The position numbers and the translations under genes were made by a program. From positions 27,129,172-27,193,171 of the forward strand of contig OY720344.1 of assembly GCA_963082975.1 (NCBI GenBank): a DNA stretch of 64,000 nucleotides, given 5' to 3'. Source of the DNA: Labia minor (Eukaryota > Arthropoda > Insecta > Dermaptera > Spongiphoridae). Position 1 is the stretch's first letter; each line of letters begins with the position of its first letter. Below, piece after piece: positions 16,286 to 53,643 of this stretch. A model generated the notes under the pieces. The model saw nothing but the letters and a program-made list of their open reading frames with translations, was not told the DNA's origin and made no database searches.

Positions 16286-16718
16286 AAATGTAAAACAAAA
16301 ACTTATTGATAACAAGGCTTTGATGTTACTAACGTATCAACTTATAATTCATTGCCTAAAAATCTTGAAAATAATTTAATTTCCGAAGATTTAGAAATTT
16401 TTAATCAATCCGACTTAATTTTAAACAGTACTTTCAATGTTTTGATGAGATGAAATTAAAAATAAATCTATTAAACGAACTAAAGAATTTTAAATTGGAT
16501 ATAAATCAAATTGATGAAAACAATAAACTATCTATCAATCAATTTAGATTAATCTTAAACGATTTAAACGATAAAAAAGCTAATATTGTGAGAGACCTTG
16601 ATACTATTAATCAACTTTACATGCAATTCAAAGAAGTGGAACAAAATGAAATCGAATATAAAGAAAAATATGATAATATTTTAATAGAAGAATTGAATAT
16701 AGAAAAAAAAAAAAAAAA
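16286..16718 (+). pseudogene. Second helical segment of element 1
   Basis: About 16450-16702 is open and reads KINLLNELKNFKLDINQID, SINQFRLILNDLNDKKANIV and QFKEVEQNEIEYKEKYDNIL. A shorter frame at about 16340-16440 (YNSLPKNLENNLISEDLEIF) precedes it with a stop between. An A-run of 16 (16703-16718) joins it to the charged repeat frame. No family recognised. Confidence 0.4.
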
Positions 16719-17612
16719 GAAGAGGTAGAAGTGCCAGAAAAAGAAGATAGATGTACCAGAAAAGAAAGAAGAGAAGATAGAAGAACCAGGAAAGAAGAAG
16801 AGAAGATAAAAGTACCAAAAAGGGAAGAAGAAAAAGAAGATGCTGAAGCTAAAGCAAGGAAAGGAAAAGAAGGAGCCGATTCTAAGGCAAAGAAAGAAAG
16901 AGAAGAAGCTGAAGCTAAAGCAAAGAAAGAAAAAGAAGATGCTGAAGCTAAAGCAAAGAAAGAAAAAGAAGATGCTGTAGCTAAAGCAAAGAAAGAAAAA
17001 GAAGAAGCTGAAGCTAAAGCAAGGAAAGGAAAAGAAGGAGCCGATTCTAAGGCAAAGAAAGAAAGAGAAGAAGCTGAAGCTAAAGCAAAGAAAGAAAAAG
17101 AAGATGCTGAAGCTAAAGCAAAGAAAGAAAAAGAAGATGCTGTAGCTAAAGCAAAGAAAGAAAAAGAAGAAGCTGAAGCTAAAGCAAGGAAAGGAAAAGA
17201 AGGAGCCGATTCTAAGGCAAAGAAAGAAAGAGAAGAAGCTGAAGCTAAAGCAAAGAAAGAAAAAGAAGATGCTGAAGCTAAAGCAAAGAAAGAAAAAGAA
17301 GATGCTGTAGCTAAAGCAAAGAAAGAAAAAGAAGAAGCCGAATTAAAGGCAAAGAAAGAAAAAGAAGAAGCCGATTCTAAGGCAAAGAAAGAAAAAGAAG
17401 AAGCCGATTCTAAGGCAAAGAAAGAAAAAGAAGAAGCCGAATTTAAGGCAAAGAAAGAAAAAGAAGAAGCCGATTCTAAGGCAAAGAAAGAAAAAGAAGA
17501 AGCCGAATTTAAGGAAAAGAAAGAAAAAGAAGAAGCCGAAGCTAAAACAAAGAAAGAAGAAGAAGATGCTGAAGCTAAAGGCAAAGAAAGAAAAAGAAGA
17601 AACAGAAACTGA
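16719..17612 (+). CDS. 11-residue Lys/Glu/Ala repeat protein (element 1)
   Basis: The frame is open from the A-run at 16703 to a stop at 17610-17612; there is no nearby ATG, so it must be the tail of a longer product or be expressed unconventionally. From about 16840 it is built of about 22 tandem 33-bp units (AEAKAKKEKED type). Five units form a 165-bp super-repeat present three times (offsets 16875, 17040, 17205). An 11-residue period is the hendecad of right-handed coiled coils, and the alternation of E and K also fits a single stable alpha-helix. A one-base insertion near 17580 shifts the final codons: the other frame would read ETETDPIVKYT. Function unknown; assembly scaffold or RNA-binding tail are guesses. 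Confidence 0.55.
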   Translation, partial: EEVEVPEKEDRCTRKERREDRRTRKEEEKIKVPKREEEKEDAEAKARKGKEGADSKAKKEREEAEAKAKKEKEDAEAKAKKEKEDAVAKAKKEKEEAEAKARKGKEGADSKAKKEREEAEAKAKKEKEDAEAKAKKEKEDAVAKAKKEKEEAEAKARKGKEGADSKAKKEREEAEAKAKKEKEDAEAKAKKEKEDAVAKAKKEKEEAELKAKKEKEEADSKAKKEKEEADSKAKKEKEEAEFKAKKEKEEADSKAKKEKEEAEFKEKKEKEEAEAKTKKEEEDAEAKGKERKRRNRN

Positions 17613-17661
17613 CCCCATTGTTAAATACACTTGATTCTTAATTCGAACTACGTTCTCCCTT

Positions 17662-28020: not shown

Positions 28021-29870
28021 TTAATGAGATGTATGCAGTTGTTTTCTTGAAACAAGAATCTCAATATCTGGCTTAATATTGGAAACTTTTAATCTAAGAT
28101 CCGGCTCTACATTTAATTTGTTTCTATATTTAGACTTAATATAAAATAGTACCGAAAAAGCTTGTTCGCATAAATATGTTGTGCAGAATGGAATCAAGTG
28201 TTGAAGTGCTTTATTTGCAACCGCAGGATAATCTGACCTGAGAAGTAACCAAAAGTTGCTCAATTCAGTTTTGTTAAATTTTAGTTTATAAGTTGTATCA
28301 CCACGAGAATATCTTGTTCAGGTGCAGATAAATGTTTAGTATTTGTAATTTCCATATTAAATGGATCTCTGATCCAGTTATTGCAAGGATCAGGAGTAGA
28401 AAAATACTTCCTGAAGTTGCTTTTCAAAGTAATTAAATGTTCAACAAATAATTGACGCGTTTGATTAAGCAATTTTTCACTGGAGCTTTCTATGAAATCA
28501 TTGAGAGTTGGAAAAGACTCATATACACCGTTCTGGATGCGTTTCGACCACAAGTCGATTTTTTTAATCATTGCTTCTATTTTATCTTCAACTTTAAATA
28601 TATTTACAACAGTACCTTGCAGGCTCAAATTAAGTTCGTTCAATTTTGTAAAAATATCAGTCAAGTAAGCCACCTTAGCTAACCAGATAAAATCATTGAA
28701 ACATTCGGTCAGTTCAAAATGCGCATCTATTAAAAACAATCGTATTTCATCTCGAAGCTCAAAAAGGCGAATGAGTACTTTCCCGCGGGACAACCAACGT
28801 ACATCTGTATGTAATAATAAATGTGTATGTTGACTACCCATTTCCTCACACAAAATTTTAAAAACTCTGGAATTAAGTGGACGAGCCTTAATGAAATTGA
28901 CAATTTTAACTACTTCGTCTAATGTTCTTTTCAAATCTGGTGACATATTTTTGGCTGCTAATGATTCTCTGTGAATGCAGCAATGATTCCAAACAACCTG
29001 AGGCGCAACATTTTTAATAAGAGCAATCAATCCAGTTCTTGTACCTGACATTGCACGAGCACCATCAGTGCAAATTCCAACACATTTTGGCCACTCTATT
29101 TCATTTTCGGTTATAAAATTATTCAAACTGTTAAATATGTCATTAGCTGTCGTTCGTGAAGGTAGTGAATCACAAAACAATACATCTTCTTGTATTTGAT
29201 TTTCAAACTCATATCTAATGAAAGCTAACAAATTGGCATTATTAGTGACATCAGTACTTTCATCCAATTGTAATGAGTAATAGTGACTTTTGCGCACTCT
29301 CGATATTAATTCTTCTTTTATATTACATGACATGTCTTCAATCCTATTCTTAACCGTATCATTTGATAATGAAATCAAATTTATATCGTTTGCTGCTTTA
29401 GTTCCTAACATTATATTTGTAATTACTTTTGTAGCAGGAAGAATTAATTGCTCTGCTATATTATGCGGCTTTCCTGCTTTAGCAATAAGTAGAGCTACTT
29501 CATATGATGCCATTACTGCTTTCTTACTCATACCACCAGATCCCGTCTTTACCATCAATTTCTGACTTGAAGTAAGTTCTTCTTTTTTCATTTTAAAAAA
29601 TTCGATAGACTTACTAACATGCTCGCTGTGCTTTGTTTGTAAATGACGTCTGAGATTAGCAGGTGTCATACTTTCATTGGATAAACTTTCCTGACATAGA
29701 ACGCAGACTGGTCTTTCCACATCATTGTTGCAAATATAAGTAAATCCAAATGATAAATAATCATCCGAATATTTTCTAGTTTTGCGTTTCTTGGTAGAGT
29801 TTGCTGTTGATGCCTCATCATCTGATTCTTTCCGTTTCTGTGTTGAACCAGTTTGTAGCCAACGATCCAT
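28021..29870 (-). pseudogene. hAT transposase, BED-finger type (ZBED5/SCAND3-like), one frameshift
   Basis: Starts at ATG 29870 with MDRWLQTGSTQKRK. Visible parts: basic N-terminus; BED-type zinc finger with CVLC at residues 56-59 and H76/H81; RNase H-like core with LDESTD (D203) and CTDGA (D269), then HCCIHRE near 296-302; a helical insertion region; and a C-terminal hAT dimerisation segment with CEQAFS and KSKYRNKLN, where the family's third acidic residue usually lies. The main frame (529 aa) ends at 28281 because of a one-base indel near 28300. The C-terminal 80 or so residues continue in another frame to a stop at 28021. Apart from that shift the domain order is complete. It would cut and paste the element at its TIRs in the nucleus. 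Domesticated relatives exist in animals, but TIRs and TSD here show an ordinary transposon. Confidence 0.85.
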
Positions 29871-30344
29871 TTTATGGAGTAATTTATTAACATTGAACTA
29901 CAATAATATAAATATAATATAAATATAATATAAATATAACGAATTATTATTTACTAGCTATGTTTTAATATGATTTTAAATGAATGTTTTAATATCATTT
30001 TAAATGAATGTTTTAAATCATTTTAATAAATGTTTTAAATAATTTTAAATAAATGATTTAATATCATTTTAAATGAATATTAATTTATATAATAAATATA
30101 TTTCGTAATTTGATTCTAAAATATTATTAATTTCGTAATTTGATTCTAAAATATTATTAAAATAAATATTTTTTATTCATAAAACTAACTTATACTTACT
30201 CTCAAAAACAGCCTTTCTGGGAAATTGCAAAATGTGTTTAGTGTTTTTATAAAATAATGATCATGCAAATTACACTAAAAATTAAAAAAAATTATTAGCT
30301 ATAATAAACTATTATTAGCTATAATTTAATTATAATTAATTAAA

Positions 30345-49763: not shown

Positions 49764-50284
49764 TATAGGATCTGAAAAAATGAAATTTATTTTATTTTAT
49801 TATTTTCCCATGAAGATGTTCTCGGAGCGACTGAGCAAATTCATGTTGCGCCGGGACATATATTTAAAACCTCGCTACCCCCTCTTAGAAGCTTACGATT
49901 GGCTATAATAAGCTGGCCATCTATTGGCTATTCGTTCAGCGCCTAGCACGCTATTGGTTGTCGAGAGTCCCCACCATCCCGCTTAGATGTCGCCAGCCGG
50001 GTATAAAAAGCCGTGAAGCAGGCTAGCTTGCCAGTAGCAGTCAGTAGCAGTTGTGATTCAAGACGTTAAGAAGAACATATACGAAGAACGAAGAACGAAG
50101 AACCGAAGATTTCCAAGACGTTTATTTTTATCTGTGTATATATTTTTTGCTAATATTTCTAAACAAAAACCATATATTTTTTGCTACACTTTTCAATAAA
50201 AACGATATTATTTTTTCTACCTTTTTCTTCAAAAACGATATTTTTTAATACATCTGCTTCACTATCGAAGCCACCAACCCTACA
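49764..50284 (+). repeat. Left LTR of element 2
   Basis: Starts TATAGGATCTG (the left copy lacks the TGAGT seen before it at the right LTR) and ends CCAACCCTACA. U3 holds a TATA box (50002), R an initiator-like CAGT near 50032, and AATAAA sits at 50195-50200. The middle has a GAAGAACGAAGAACGAAGAA tandem. Confidence 0.9.
50002..50035 (+). promoter_or_regulatory. LTR core promoter: TATA box and initiator
   Basis: TATAAAAAG at 50002-50010 and CAGT at 50032-50035, about 31 bases downstream, give the arthropod TATA/initiator spacing; a second TCAGT lies at 50041. Expected transcription start is about 50033. Confidence 0.55.
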
Positions 50285-50304
50285 ATTTGAGGGCTCAGTC
50301 CGAG
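50285..50304 (+). promoter_or_regulatory. Putative primer binding site of element 2 (tRNA-Pro-like)
   Basis: Directly after the left LTR comes TTTGAGGGCTCAGTCCGAGA, which resembles the complement of the 3' end of tRNA-Pro with one inserted base and a few changes. A degraded or unusual primer site; the identification is tentative. Confidence 0.4.
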
Positions 50305-50547
50305 ATTGAAGAATTATTACCCCTAATAACCACGAAGAAACAAGAGCCAAACGAGGAAATGTCCAGTCTTCAAGATACAAGACGCAAGATTCAAGTTTCA
50401 AGATTTTTCTAAATCTTTCTCCTTTTTCTCCTTATCCCCTCAGTGAATTGGAAACGACCCACGTTAATCAATTCATTGGGCACCGAAGGACCATCACGCT
50501 GTCAAATCCTATTTTCATTTAATATTTCCATACATACGCCTTTCATA

Positions 50548-52341
50548 ATGACTTCCTTTGAAACTATCCCATTCGTTCAACGTCAGCTAGCTTTGTCTGA
50601 ATTCAAGATTATAAAAAGTTTGCACAAAATTCTTTACGACGAAGAAGCCGATCGAAAAAGCCGTAGCAAAGTAAAACGATTTGCTGGATTTGATTTCGAA
50701 AGAGAGTCAGAAGAATTCAAGAATCGACTTGAAACGATGAACTCTTTAAACACAGCCACTTTAATTAAAATTGGAAACATTTTAAATATAGCTGAAAATT
50801 CTAAAGACGACATAATAAACGCTATTACAGATGTTTTATTCAATTTGGCTGAATTTGGAAGATCATTAAATGAATCGGAAGCAGAAGAAGATGAAGAAGA
50901 AGAAGAAGAAGCAACTGAAGAAGTACGCCAAGTTCCATATTCATTAAGATTTCCCTCTGCTGTCAACATAAGAGATATCGAGGACTTGGTAAAGAAATTT
51001 GATGGTGCTAAAACATATTCAGTTAACCGCTGGATACAAGATATAGAAGACGAAGCAGACATCCATTTATTAGACGAAAGACAAACGATGATACTCGCAA
51101 GAAGATGTCTCACAGGACTTGCAAAATTGTATTTCGAAAATACAAAAGGTGTCAAGACATGGAGAGATATGAAAACAAGCCTGAAAAAACAATTTTCCCC
51201 AAAGATCGACGAAATTGAGATTCATCGAGAATTGGGAAACAGAAAAATGAAAAGAGGCGAAGATGCAACTGAATATTTTATTCATATGCAAAAGATTGCG
51301 AATCAAGGGGATATAAAGCCGAAATTACTAATTGAATATATAATCAATGGAATCGAAGATCCTCATAGCAAAATGTTTCTAGTTGGAACAAAAACATTGA
51401 CAGATCTTCAACAAAAACTAAACATGTTGGGCGACTTTATAAAAGAAGCATCAATAAGAAGAAACCCTGTTGAAAGAAAAGATACTAATCAGAAGCATAC
51501 TGTCAAAGAAAAGAAAAAAGAAATCACAAGATGTTTCAACTGTGGAGACGCTTCACATTTTTCTAACGAGTGTCCATCTAAGAACAGGGGCGTCAAATGT
51601 TTTAAATGTAATAATTTTGGACATAAATCATTTGATTGCCCCACTAAGAAAAAAGAAATATATAAAATGGAAACAAAACCGTCAACTAGAAATCACAAGA
51701 TCGTATCAATCCAAAATAAGGAAATAAATGCCCTTATCGACACGGGTAGCAGTTTGACATTCTTATCAAAAAATATTCATAATGAAATCAACTCGCCTCA
51801 ATTATCCAAATCTGACGTGACTTTAACTGGCCTAGGAAAAACGACAACCAATTCGTTGGGTTATTTCCAAACAAAAATAACAATCGACGGAGATGAATTT
51901 CCAACAAAAGTATACGTCGTTAACAATAACGCCATGAACGAAGATGTAATCATAGGCGACGATGTGCTTAAGCAAGCCACTCTTACAATCTCCCAAGAAT
52001 ATATCAAGTTGAAGAAAATTAATGATTTAGAAGAATACGCCATCATGTACATCAAAGCAGAAGACTCTGATAAAAAAGATGATAAAAAATCTGAATCAGT
52101 TTCAGCTGACGACAATGATAAAGAAGATGAAAAAACCGAATCAAAAAAAGAAAATGAAATTAAATCTGATGAAACATCTCCAGGAGTAACAAAAGAAGAA
52201 GAGAAAAAAGACGAAAGCACCTCGATGGAAACGGATGAAGTGAAAAAATCTAAAGAAGTGACAAAAGAAGAAAAACAGAATTCGAAACTAAGTCAAAAGA
52301 AGAGAAAACAGAGAAAATTGATACGAAAGAAGCCAAAGTAA
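50548..52341 (+). CDS. Gag-protease with DEK-like N-terminal domain (LTR element 2)
   Basis: First ATG at 50548 (MTSFETIPF); the frame is open upstream but has no earlier ATG. 597 aa. Residues about 22-100 resemble the DEK chromatin protein core: SLHKILY, RFAGFDFE and TLIKIGNILNI followed by a SAP-like helix, then an acidic run (109-121). Residues about 127-310 look like a Gypsy capsid: NRWIQDIEDEA, ARRCLTGLAKLYF, WRDMKTSLKKQF. CCHC zinc knuckles lie at 329-342 (CFNCGDASHFSNEC) and 351-364 (CFKCNNFGHKSFDC). An aspartic protease follows with LIDTGSS (396-402) and VIIGDDVL (467-474). The end is Lys/Asp-rich and breaks at 52341, with the tail continuing in the -1 frame. Gag would package RNA and form particles; a DEK-like part could tether to chromatin (inference). 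Confidence 0.8.
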   Translation: MTSFETIPFVQRQLALSEFKIIKSLHKILYDEEADRKSRSKVKRFAGFDFERESEEFKNRLETMNSLNTATLIKIGNILNIAENSKDDIINAITDVLFNLAEFGRSLNESEAEEDEEEEEEATEEVRQVPYSLRFPSAVNIRDIEDLVKKFDGAKTYSVNRWIQDIEDEADIHLLDERQTMILARRCLTGLAKLYFENTKGVKTWRDMKTSLKKQFSPKIDEIEIHRELGNRKMKRGEDATEYFIHMQKIANQGDIKPKLLIEYIINGIEDPHSKMFLVGTKTLTDLQQKLNMLGDFIKEASIRRNPVERKDTNQKHTVKEKKKEITRCFNCGDASHFSNECPSKNRGVKCFKCNNFGHKSFDCPTKKKEIYKMETKPSTRNHKIVSIQNKEINALIDTGSSLTFLSKNIHNEINSPQLSKSDVTLTGLGKTTTNSLGYFQTKITIDGDEFPTKVYVVNNNAMNEDVIIGDDVLKQATLTISQEYIKLKKINDLEEYAIMYIKAEDSDKKDDKKSESVSADDNDKEDEKTESKKENEIKSDETSPGVTKEEEKKDESTSMETDEVKKSKEVTKEEKQNSKLSQKKRKQRKLIRKKPK

Positions 52342-53087
52342 ATGAATCCACAGAAAAAAAAGATGAAACACCAAAAGAAAAAGAAACAACTAAAGAGGAA
52401 AAAGATGTGAAAAAGGCAGAAGAAACCAAACCAGAAGCTAAAGAAGAAAAAGAAAAAGAGGTCTCTTCTGAAGAGAAGAAGAAAGAAGAGAGTGAAAATG
52501 AAAAGATGGAGGTAGAAAAAGAAGAAGAAACTGATAAAAAAGAATCTGATGAAAAAGTGGAAGTCAAAGAAGAAAAGAATGAAGATGAAGATGAAGAATC
52601 TCCAAAGACTGATAATGAAAAAAAGACTCAAAGTAAAGTTAATGAAGAGGATAAATCAAATGAAGGTGAATCAATGGAAGTTGATAAGGATGAAAGCACT
52701 TCAGAAGATCAAAATAAAACAATTCGTGGAGAAGATTTTGATCCCAATGATAAAATTTTTGATCTTGATAAAACACAAACTACAAGTAAAGTTGGAACTG
52801 AAGATAGTATATTAAATAAAGAAAAGGAAGACTTTAATTTTTATGAGGTTAGTGAATTAAAAGAAATAATGAATGTAAATTTAGATTTAGAAACAGACAT
52901 AAATAATTTATCCGAATCACAAGATATGGATGATAAGAAAAGTATATTTGATGTGCAATCTAATAAACTATTTTATCCTGCTCATTGTGTGAAGAAAGAA
53001 ATTGATAAATATGGAAAAAGGAAGAAGGTGAAGTGGAGAGACAAGATAGAATGTTGTGAAGGTGCCGATGACAACTACGAGAATTGA
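52254..53087 (+). CDS. Lys/Glu-rich tail in the -1 frame (LTR element 2)
   Basis: After a TAA at 52251 this frame is open to TGA at 53085-53087 and overlaps the end of the Gag frame by 88 nt. The Gag tail and this frame share the same Lys/Glu/Ser-rich style, so they look like one protein split by a -1 shift near the A-run at 52271-52275. No ATG opens the frame until about 52506, so it is not an ordinary independent gene. The last 110 residues become less simple (DFDPNDKIFDLDKTQ, KSIFDVQSNKLFYPAHCVKK, KKVKWRDKIECC) and may fold. No RT motif. Unknown function. Confidence 0.55.
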   Translation, partial: RSDKRRKTEFETKSKEEKTEKIDTKEAKVNESTEKKDETPKEKETTKEEKDVKKAEETKPEAKEEKEKEVSSEEKKKEESENEKMEVEKEEETDKKESDEKVEVKEEKNEDEDEESPKTDNEKKTQSKVNEEDKSNEGESMEVDKDESTSEDQNKTIRGEDFDPNDKIFDLDKTQTTSKVGTEDSILNKEKEDFNFYEVSELKEIMNVNLDLETDINNLSESQDMDDKKSIFDVQSNKLFYPAHCVKKEIDKYGKRKKVKWRDKIECCEGADDNYEN

Positions 53088-53117
53088 CATTCGGGTCGAA
53101 TGTCACCAAAGAGGGGG
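53086..53117 (+). promoter_or_regulatory. Stem-loop and polypurine tract before right LTR
   Basis: A perfect 7-bp stem GACATTC / GAATGTC with a GGGTC loop (53086-53104) overlaps the stop codon, followed by AAAGAGGGGG (53108-53117), the expected plus-strand primer tract. Confidence 0.65.
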
Positions 53118-53122
53118 TGAGT

Positions 53123-53643
53123 TATAGGATCTGAAAAAATGAAATTTATTTTATTTTATTATTTTCCCATGAAGATGTTCTCGGAGCGACTGAGCAAATT
53201 CATGTTGCGCCGGGACATATATTTAAAACCTCGCTACCCCCTCTTAGAAGCTTACGATTGGCTATAATAAGCTGGCCATCTATTGGCTATTCGTTCAGCG
53301 CCTAGCACGCTATTGGTTGTCGAGAGTCCCCACCATCCCGCTTAGATGTCGCCAGCCGGGTATAAAAAGCCGTGAAGCAGGCTAGCTTGCCAGTAGCAGT
53401 CAGTAGCAGTTGTGATTCAAGACGTTAAGAAGAACATATACGAAGAACGAAGAACGAAGAACCGAAGATTTCCAAGACGTTTATTTTTATCTGTGTATAT
53501 ATTTTTTGCTAATATTTCTAAACAAAAACCATATATTTTTTGCTACACTTTTCAATAAAAACGATATTATTTTTTCTACCTTTTTCTTCAAAAACGATAT
53601 TTTTTAATACATCTGCTTCACTATCGAAGCCACCAACCCTACA
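53123..53643 (+). repeat. Right LTR of element 2
   Basis: Matches 49764-50284 with no difference seen. TG at 53118-53119 could be the true LTR start, in which case the left LTR has lost its first five bases; AATAAA at 53554-53559. Confidence 0.9.

Follow-up and report, generated by a model that had tools for sequence, protein, structure and literature searches.

In a 64,000-nucleotide stretch of the Labia minor genome (contig OY720344.1, positions 27,129,172 to 27,193,171 of the forward strand; hereafter the window), we found a compact long terminal repeat (LTR) retrotransposon whose Gag protein begins with a domain of the type known from the chromatin protein DEK. Judged by sequence and profile comparison, Gag residues 1-103 (50548..50856, + strand) are almost certainly homologous to the whole DEK pseudo-SAP/SAP domain. 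The domain very probably derives from a cellular DEK gene by a single acquisition, long ago, in an ancestor of the group and was then inherited under selection. For the fuller statement, which joins this acquisition to a docking of Gag on chromatin or nucleic acid, we put the chances at slightly below even.

Homology of the Gag N-terminus with DEK

An earlier note on the window, made from the letters alone, had placed DEK-like motifs in a fixed order ahead of the capsid region. They were located as LHKILY (Gag residues 25-30), RFAGFDFE (44-51) and TLIKIGNILNI (71-81), all N-terminal to the capsid match, and profile, hidden Markov model (HMM) and shuffle tests extended the likeness over the whole pseudo-SAP/SAP domain. 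With the first 139 Gag residues as query, phmmer retrieved from the PDB (177,635 sequences) three human DEK sequences at E 4e-6 to 5e-5 and no non-DEK match below E 2, the single-sequence match covering positions 27-120 of 2jx3. A profile of four Gag N-termini matched DEK at E 2.6e-13 and a more divergent one, of nine Gags, at E 3.3e-16, with the best non-DEK entry at 0.19; positions 3-101 of the nine-Gag profile align to DEK residues 87-185, i.e., the whole pseudo-SAP/SAP domain. DEK was thus the only convincing PDB match. One profile contained human DEK letters, which makes its matches to vertebrate DEK circular; these were excluded, and evidence for homology was restricted to Gag-only profiles or DEK-alone queries.

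The converse comparison, with an HMM of six vertebrate DEK proteins, gave 26.6 bits for the window Gag and 30.3 bits for its first 103 residues, while 1000 shuffles of these residues reached at most 9.2 bits. The same HMM was applied to 53 proteins, namely the window Gag and 52 others from protein searches, whose 10,600 N-terminal shuffles peaked at 11.5 bits. Fifteen of the 53 exceed this value (13.1-39.2 bits) and the other 38 lie below it (P0032 highest, 10.9 bits), many of the latter being fragments without this N-terminus or Gags bearing another one. Each of the nine aligned Gags also outscored its own 1000 shuffles (16.6-30.7 vs. 7.3-13.6 bits). In hhalign, DEK-type Gags scored 97.3% and 97.8% against DEK, and families B, C and D alone (see below) reached 96.9%, although they lack the LHK motif. 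A modest AlphaFold model, for which Gag sequences were the sole input (mean predicted local distance difference test score 63), had four DEK-nucleosome entries as its top Foldseek hits (probability 0.97-1.00, E 0.03-0.15); this structure comparison is not decisive alone.

That the N-terminus is an ordinary Gag matrix domain, the case which the earlier note had named as refuting it, or a chance resemblance is hardly credible, being contradicted by the PDB search, the Gag profiles, the DEK HMM with its shuffles and the genome search presented below. Its support lies in the Pfam SAP model (PF02037), which matches none of the nine Gag N-termini at E 0.1; this test lacks power, since it passes primate DEK but misses the SAP exon of the host's own DEK gene. 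Gag residues 1-135 alone matched nothing in a protein search at E 1, probably because single sequences have few exact words in common, viral contigs scanned with P0001 (the window Gag) and P0002 contained no relative, and NCBIfam gave only sub-threshold matches. Pfam scans of P0001 and 13 relatives matched no DEK_C domain. The Gag carries one DEK domain and is not a DEK protein.

Occurrence among retrotransposon families

Primate DEK searched against the whole source genome (604 Mb, 71 contigs) gave 59 matches with E-values up to 1. One host DEK gene (C1:104.778 Mb) accounts for two of them, both exons; its SAP part matches at E 3e-22 and the neighbouring exon encodes DEK_C (PF08766, E 1e-14). 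The remaining 57 matches are each weak (E 0.0016 to 0.73; window Gag 0.0076). For 48 of them a Gag match overlaps or lies next to the DEK match, and all nine others translate into a DEK-type start or fragment of this group; in three of the nine (L098, L099, L101) the stretch read contains no capsid part, and L100 is a broken fragment. Within the reach of the search, the DEK matches outside the DEK gene therefore belong to this retrotransposon group. Apart from this, the near-identical DEK-type starts of L099 and L101, which are of family B, lead directly into K/E-rich sequence resembling that in family A.

N-terminal translations distinguish at least six domain-bearing families in the source genome, A (that of the window element) and B to F. 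In family B, the frames of two copies run to 1398 and 1399 codons, and their downstream part encodes reverse transcriptase, RNase H and integrase in this order (Pfam on L046; L047 reads alike); autonomous elements thus bear the DEK-type domain. No chromodomain was matched by Pfam in the family B pol piece at E 0.01.

The earlier note had also proposed a search for Gags with the same N-terminus in related genomes, and such Gags were found beyond the source genome in the spiders Araneus ventricosus and Larinioides sclopetarius, in the fly Rhagoletis pomonella and in one ENA record, as seen among the best 120 of 208 matches of one protein-collection search. The acidic run that follows the domain in the window Gag (residues about 109-125; 50872..50922, + strand) had been put forward as a further DEK trait. 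It is present, and similar stretches lie behind the domain in families B to E, in the Gags from the spiders, the fly and the ENA record and, more weakly, in family F, but the run is low-complexity and not diagnostic. Some spider proteins are titled "SAP domain-containing" in UniRef and P0044 "DEK C-terminal domain-containing"; despite these titles, Pfam found neither SAP nor DEK_C in P0029, P0031 and P0044.

Among other Gags of the lineage, some begin with a plain SAP domain, which scores above the Pfam cut-off in P0015 and below it in P0009 and P0016, and some with neither type, as judged from 10 of the 25 relatives from one protein search that were scanned with Pfam. A common acquisition with the plain SAP of P0009, P0015 and P0016 is not supported, as hhalign gave 1.5% against DEK-type Gags and 2.4% against vertebrate DEK. 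By eye, several relatives (P0008, P0009, P0012 and P0022-P0026) look like Gag-protease followed by a charged region without reverse transcriptase, most with an integrase-type tail, as if loss of pol and its replacement by charged filler recurred in the lineage.

Origin of the domain

The earlier note had suggested that the element captured a segment of its host's DEK and that a tree including host DEK would date the capture. In a tree of 16 domains over 104 columns, one branch with support 98/98 separates the 11 Gags from the five DEKs; the tree is short and unrooted, and host DEK is the sole non-vertebrate DEK in it. The identity of the Gags is 18-34% to host DEK and 21-31% to vertebrate DEK, compared with 42-43% between host and vertebrate DEK. 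Only the first half of the capture proposal stands, i.e., a DEK-derived domain on Gag. The second half, that this element took it from this host, does not, since most Gags are about equally far from both DEKs. Capture by the window element itself was rejected on the grounds that at least six families, the spiders and the fly all bear the domain and that the Gags lie on one side of the tree. Given this split and the similar distances to host and vertebrate DEK, one ancient acquisition fits better. Families E and F are somewhat closer to host DEK (34 and 32%) than to vertebrate DEK (27 and 26%).

The unrooted tree would also accommodate the reverse direction, in which DEK derives from a retrotransposon Gag domain. 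DEK occurs across animals and plants, whereas the named carriers of the Gag form are all arthropods among the best 120 of 208 matches, and we regard this direction as very improbable.

Selection, DNA contacts and possible roles of the domain

Substitutions in the domain point to purifying selection of modest certainty, as the copies compared are related and transition bias was left out of the counts. In family A, nine distinct sequences compared with the window show 12 synonymous and 9 non-synonymous distinct changes (61 of 300 sites being synonymous; p 2e-4), and 8 of each remain without the most divergent copy (p 0.008). Seven family B sequences show 16 synonymous and 28 non-synonymous changes (p 0.013). 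Pairwise ratios of non-synonymous to synonymous divergence (dN/dS), taken for the six most divergent pairs of a family, are 0.03-0.06 in family A, where every such pair includes L040, and 0.36-0.54 in family B.

Retroviral Gags have a matrix domain at the N-terminal place held here by the DEK-type domain, and Gag N-termini help determine the destination of a retroelement particle. We propose, as a tentative mechanism that is possible but less than even in probability, that the domain would dock Gag, or the reverse-transcribed complex accompanied by Gag, onto chromatin or other nucleic acid. The contact would be single-sided, made through the pseudo-SAP half, where DEK positions 107 and 124 have stayed basic, and would differ in mode from the three-point grip of DEK on the nucleosome. 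Speculatively, the acidic tail may prevent sticking to the element's own RNA.

In the DEK-nucleosome structure, as given in an excerpt of PMC12263440, the SAP domain is seated at the dyad, where R107, K111, R116 and K144 make contacts, and linker DNA is held via K124/K125 and R153/K158/R168. Several observations weigh against a docking role. Of these nine nucleosomal-DNA contacts (107, 111, 116, 124, 125, 144, 153, 158 and 168), the window Gag is basic at three (107, 111, 124) and host DEK at seven. Across the 11 Gags, positions 153, 158 and 168 are basic in one, two and none, respectively, but position 107 is basic in 10 and position 124 is an arginine in all 11; the alignment has a gap in the loop from 116 to 125, which leaves positions there less certain. 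A nucleosome grip like that of DEK cannot be assumed for a domain that has lost most DNA-contact residues, and the tethering to chromatin or nucleosomes suggested in the earlier note is not borne out by them. Furthermore, 15 natural DEK-minus copies of family A (L006, L024 and L026-L039, L006 and L026 being the same copy) start in frame after the domain, 14 with the junction MTSFE-SST and one with MTSFE-EVRQVP. Probably at least two in-frame losses occurred, one of which spread to 14 places. These copies show that the domain is not needed in cis for the spread of the non-autonomous family A. As family A has no reverse transcriptase or integrase, service in trans is possible, and DEK-bearing Gags may provide it. 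The GC content of the 5' flanks, a coarse measure of targeting, did not differ between DEK-minus and DEK-plus copies.

The same observations bear on another reading, namely that the host-derived domain was rewired and no longer binds nucleosomes but gives Gag a helical module, similar to a matrix domain, that would serve self-association, the handling of RNA or the binding of a host protein. This is a plausible though minority possibility: the Gags have lost the basic charge of DEK and most of its DNA contacts while nearly all retain the F-x-G-F core motif, the domain carries signs of selection, and the 15 family A copies do without it. Such rewiring sits less well with the basic residues at 107 and 124 in nearly all Gags and with the plain SAP found at the same place in related Gags (above the cut-off in P0015, below it in P0009 and P0016), a hint that these Gags share a need to bind DNA or chromatin. 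We rank the single-sided pseudo-SAP contact first, closely followed by a rewired role in protein-protein binding or assembly. An improbable third reading takes the domain as a mimic or competitor of host DEK that displaces DEK or its partners and so relieves silencing of the element. DEK has been linked to H3K27me3 and chromatin compaction (excerpt of PMC12263440), which would suit a mimic, but an identity of only 18-34% to host DEK does not, and we judge a structural particle protein unlikely to act as a mimic of a repressor.

Architecture of the element and other features of the window

The element spans 49764-53643 (+ strand) between two identical LTRs of 521 bp (49764..50284 and 53123..53643), with a purine-rich AAAGAGGGGG stretch just upstream of the 3' LTR. 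The LTR starts with TATAGG in 30 of the 34 copies examined, the window copy among them; the other four had no LTR match and were dropped. TA repeats border the element, TATATATA on the left and TATATATATG on the right. The Gag open reading frame starts with an ATG at 50548 and has 597 codons. Behind the DEK-type domain and the acidic run, it encodes a capsid-type Retrotrans_gag match (residues 199-269; 51142..51354; PF03732 E 2.9e-5), two CCHC zinc knuckles (329-342 and 351-364; 51532..51639; PF00098 E 2.7e-8) and a retroviral-type aspartic protease (386-481; 51703..51990; PF13975 E 1.8e-8, PF00077 E 7.5e-7), all on the + strand. LTRs, capsid, CCHC knuckles and aspartic protease, the hallmarks of Ty3/gypsy elements, are all present, which confirms the location on an LTR-retrotransposon Gag. 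A second frame encodes a K/E-rich region (52254..53087, + strand) that matched nothing in Pfam at E 0.1. In several related copies a single frame extends over about 870-910 codons; in the window copy this frame is broken within the K/E-rich part. Pfam scans found no reverse transcriptase or integrase in the window element, which is thus non-autonomous.

Elsewhere in the genome, two DEK-plus copies lie about 3 kb apart (C2:19124875 and C2:19127881, L079); one LTR of this pair is flanked by the same purine tract and 3' end as the window element has, which suggests a tandem arrangement. Within the window, the + strand of 16617-17620 has a long open frame of repetitive, K/E/A-rich sequence (16677-17612); mirror frames lie on the opposite strand, and repeat units are recognizable by eye. 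At 28281-29897 (- strand), a 538-codon open frame has a sub-threshold BED zinc finger match (E 0.0065); it looks like a transposase of the hAT type or a gene that descends from such a transposase.

Significance and comparison with known systems

To our knowledge, few folded cellular domains have been taken into Gag. We found no published account of a DEK-type domain on a retrotransposon Gag in the open-access literature, in agreement with the earlier note, which does not prove that none exists. In the present case, the Gag N-terminus is firmly occupied by a chromatin-protein domain in a lineage found in a fly and in spiders, with an autonomous family and many open-frame copies. A bolder reading, plausible yet held with less than even confidence, is that an arthropod Ty3/gypsy lineage swapped its Gag matrix for a DEK-derived nucleosome-binding module, by which the capsid protein would dock the incoming complex on chromatin; the natural DEK-minus copies would then be a built-in control. 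With copies that have and lack the domain in one genome, the steering of integration by Gag becomes approachable by comparison of insertion sites.

Among retroelements, chromoviruses offer one parallel: their chromodomain is a chromatin-reader fold on a Ty3/gypsy integrase, so that a chromatin-related fold is borne by an LTR retrotransposon in both cases, there on the integrase and here on Gag. TR-GAG elements, described in plants, have terminal repeats and Gag only; the window element likewise has LTRs and gag without reverse transcriptase or integrase, but differs in keeping a protease and a K/E-rich extension. DEK itself (PDB 2jx3, 8kcy, 9l1x) aligns over the whole domain, the window Gag having its LHK-x-LY and F-x-GF-x-FE blocks, and acidic stretches follow the domain in both. 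In contrast to DEK, the Gag has no counterpart of the histone-binding region, no DEK_C was found, and most DNA-contact residues and the basic charge are lost. In foamy viruses, too, a chromatin-docking element is borne on Gag itself, with its function demonstrated there, while for the Gag described here docking is a proposal from sequence; according to an excerpt of PMC6042332, the foamy-virus chromatin-binding sequence comprises 13 C-terminal residues that bind H2A/H2B. A short C-terminal sequence there thus stands against a folded N-terminal domain here.
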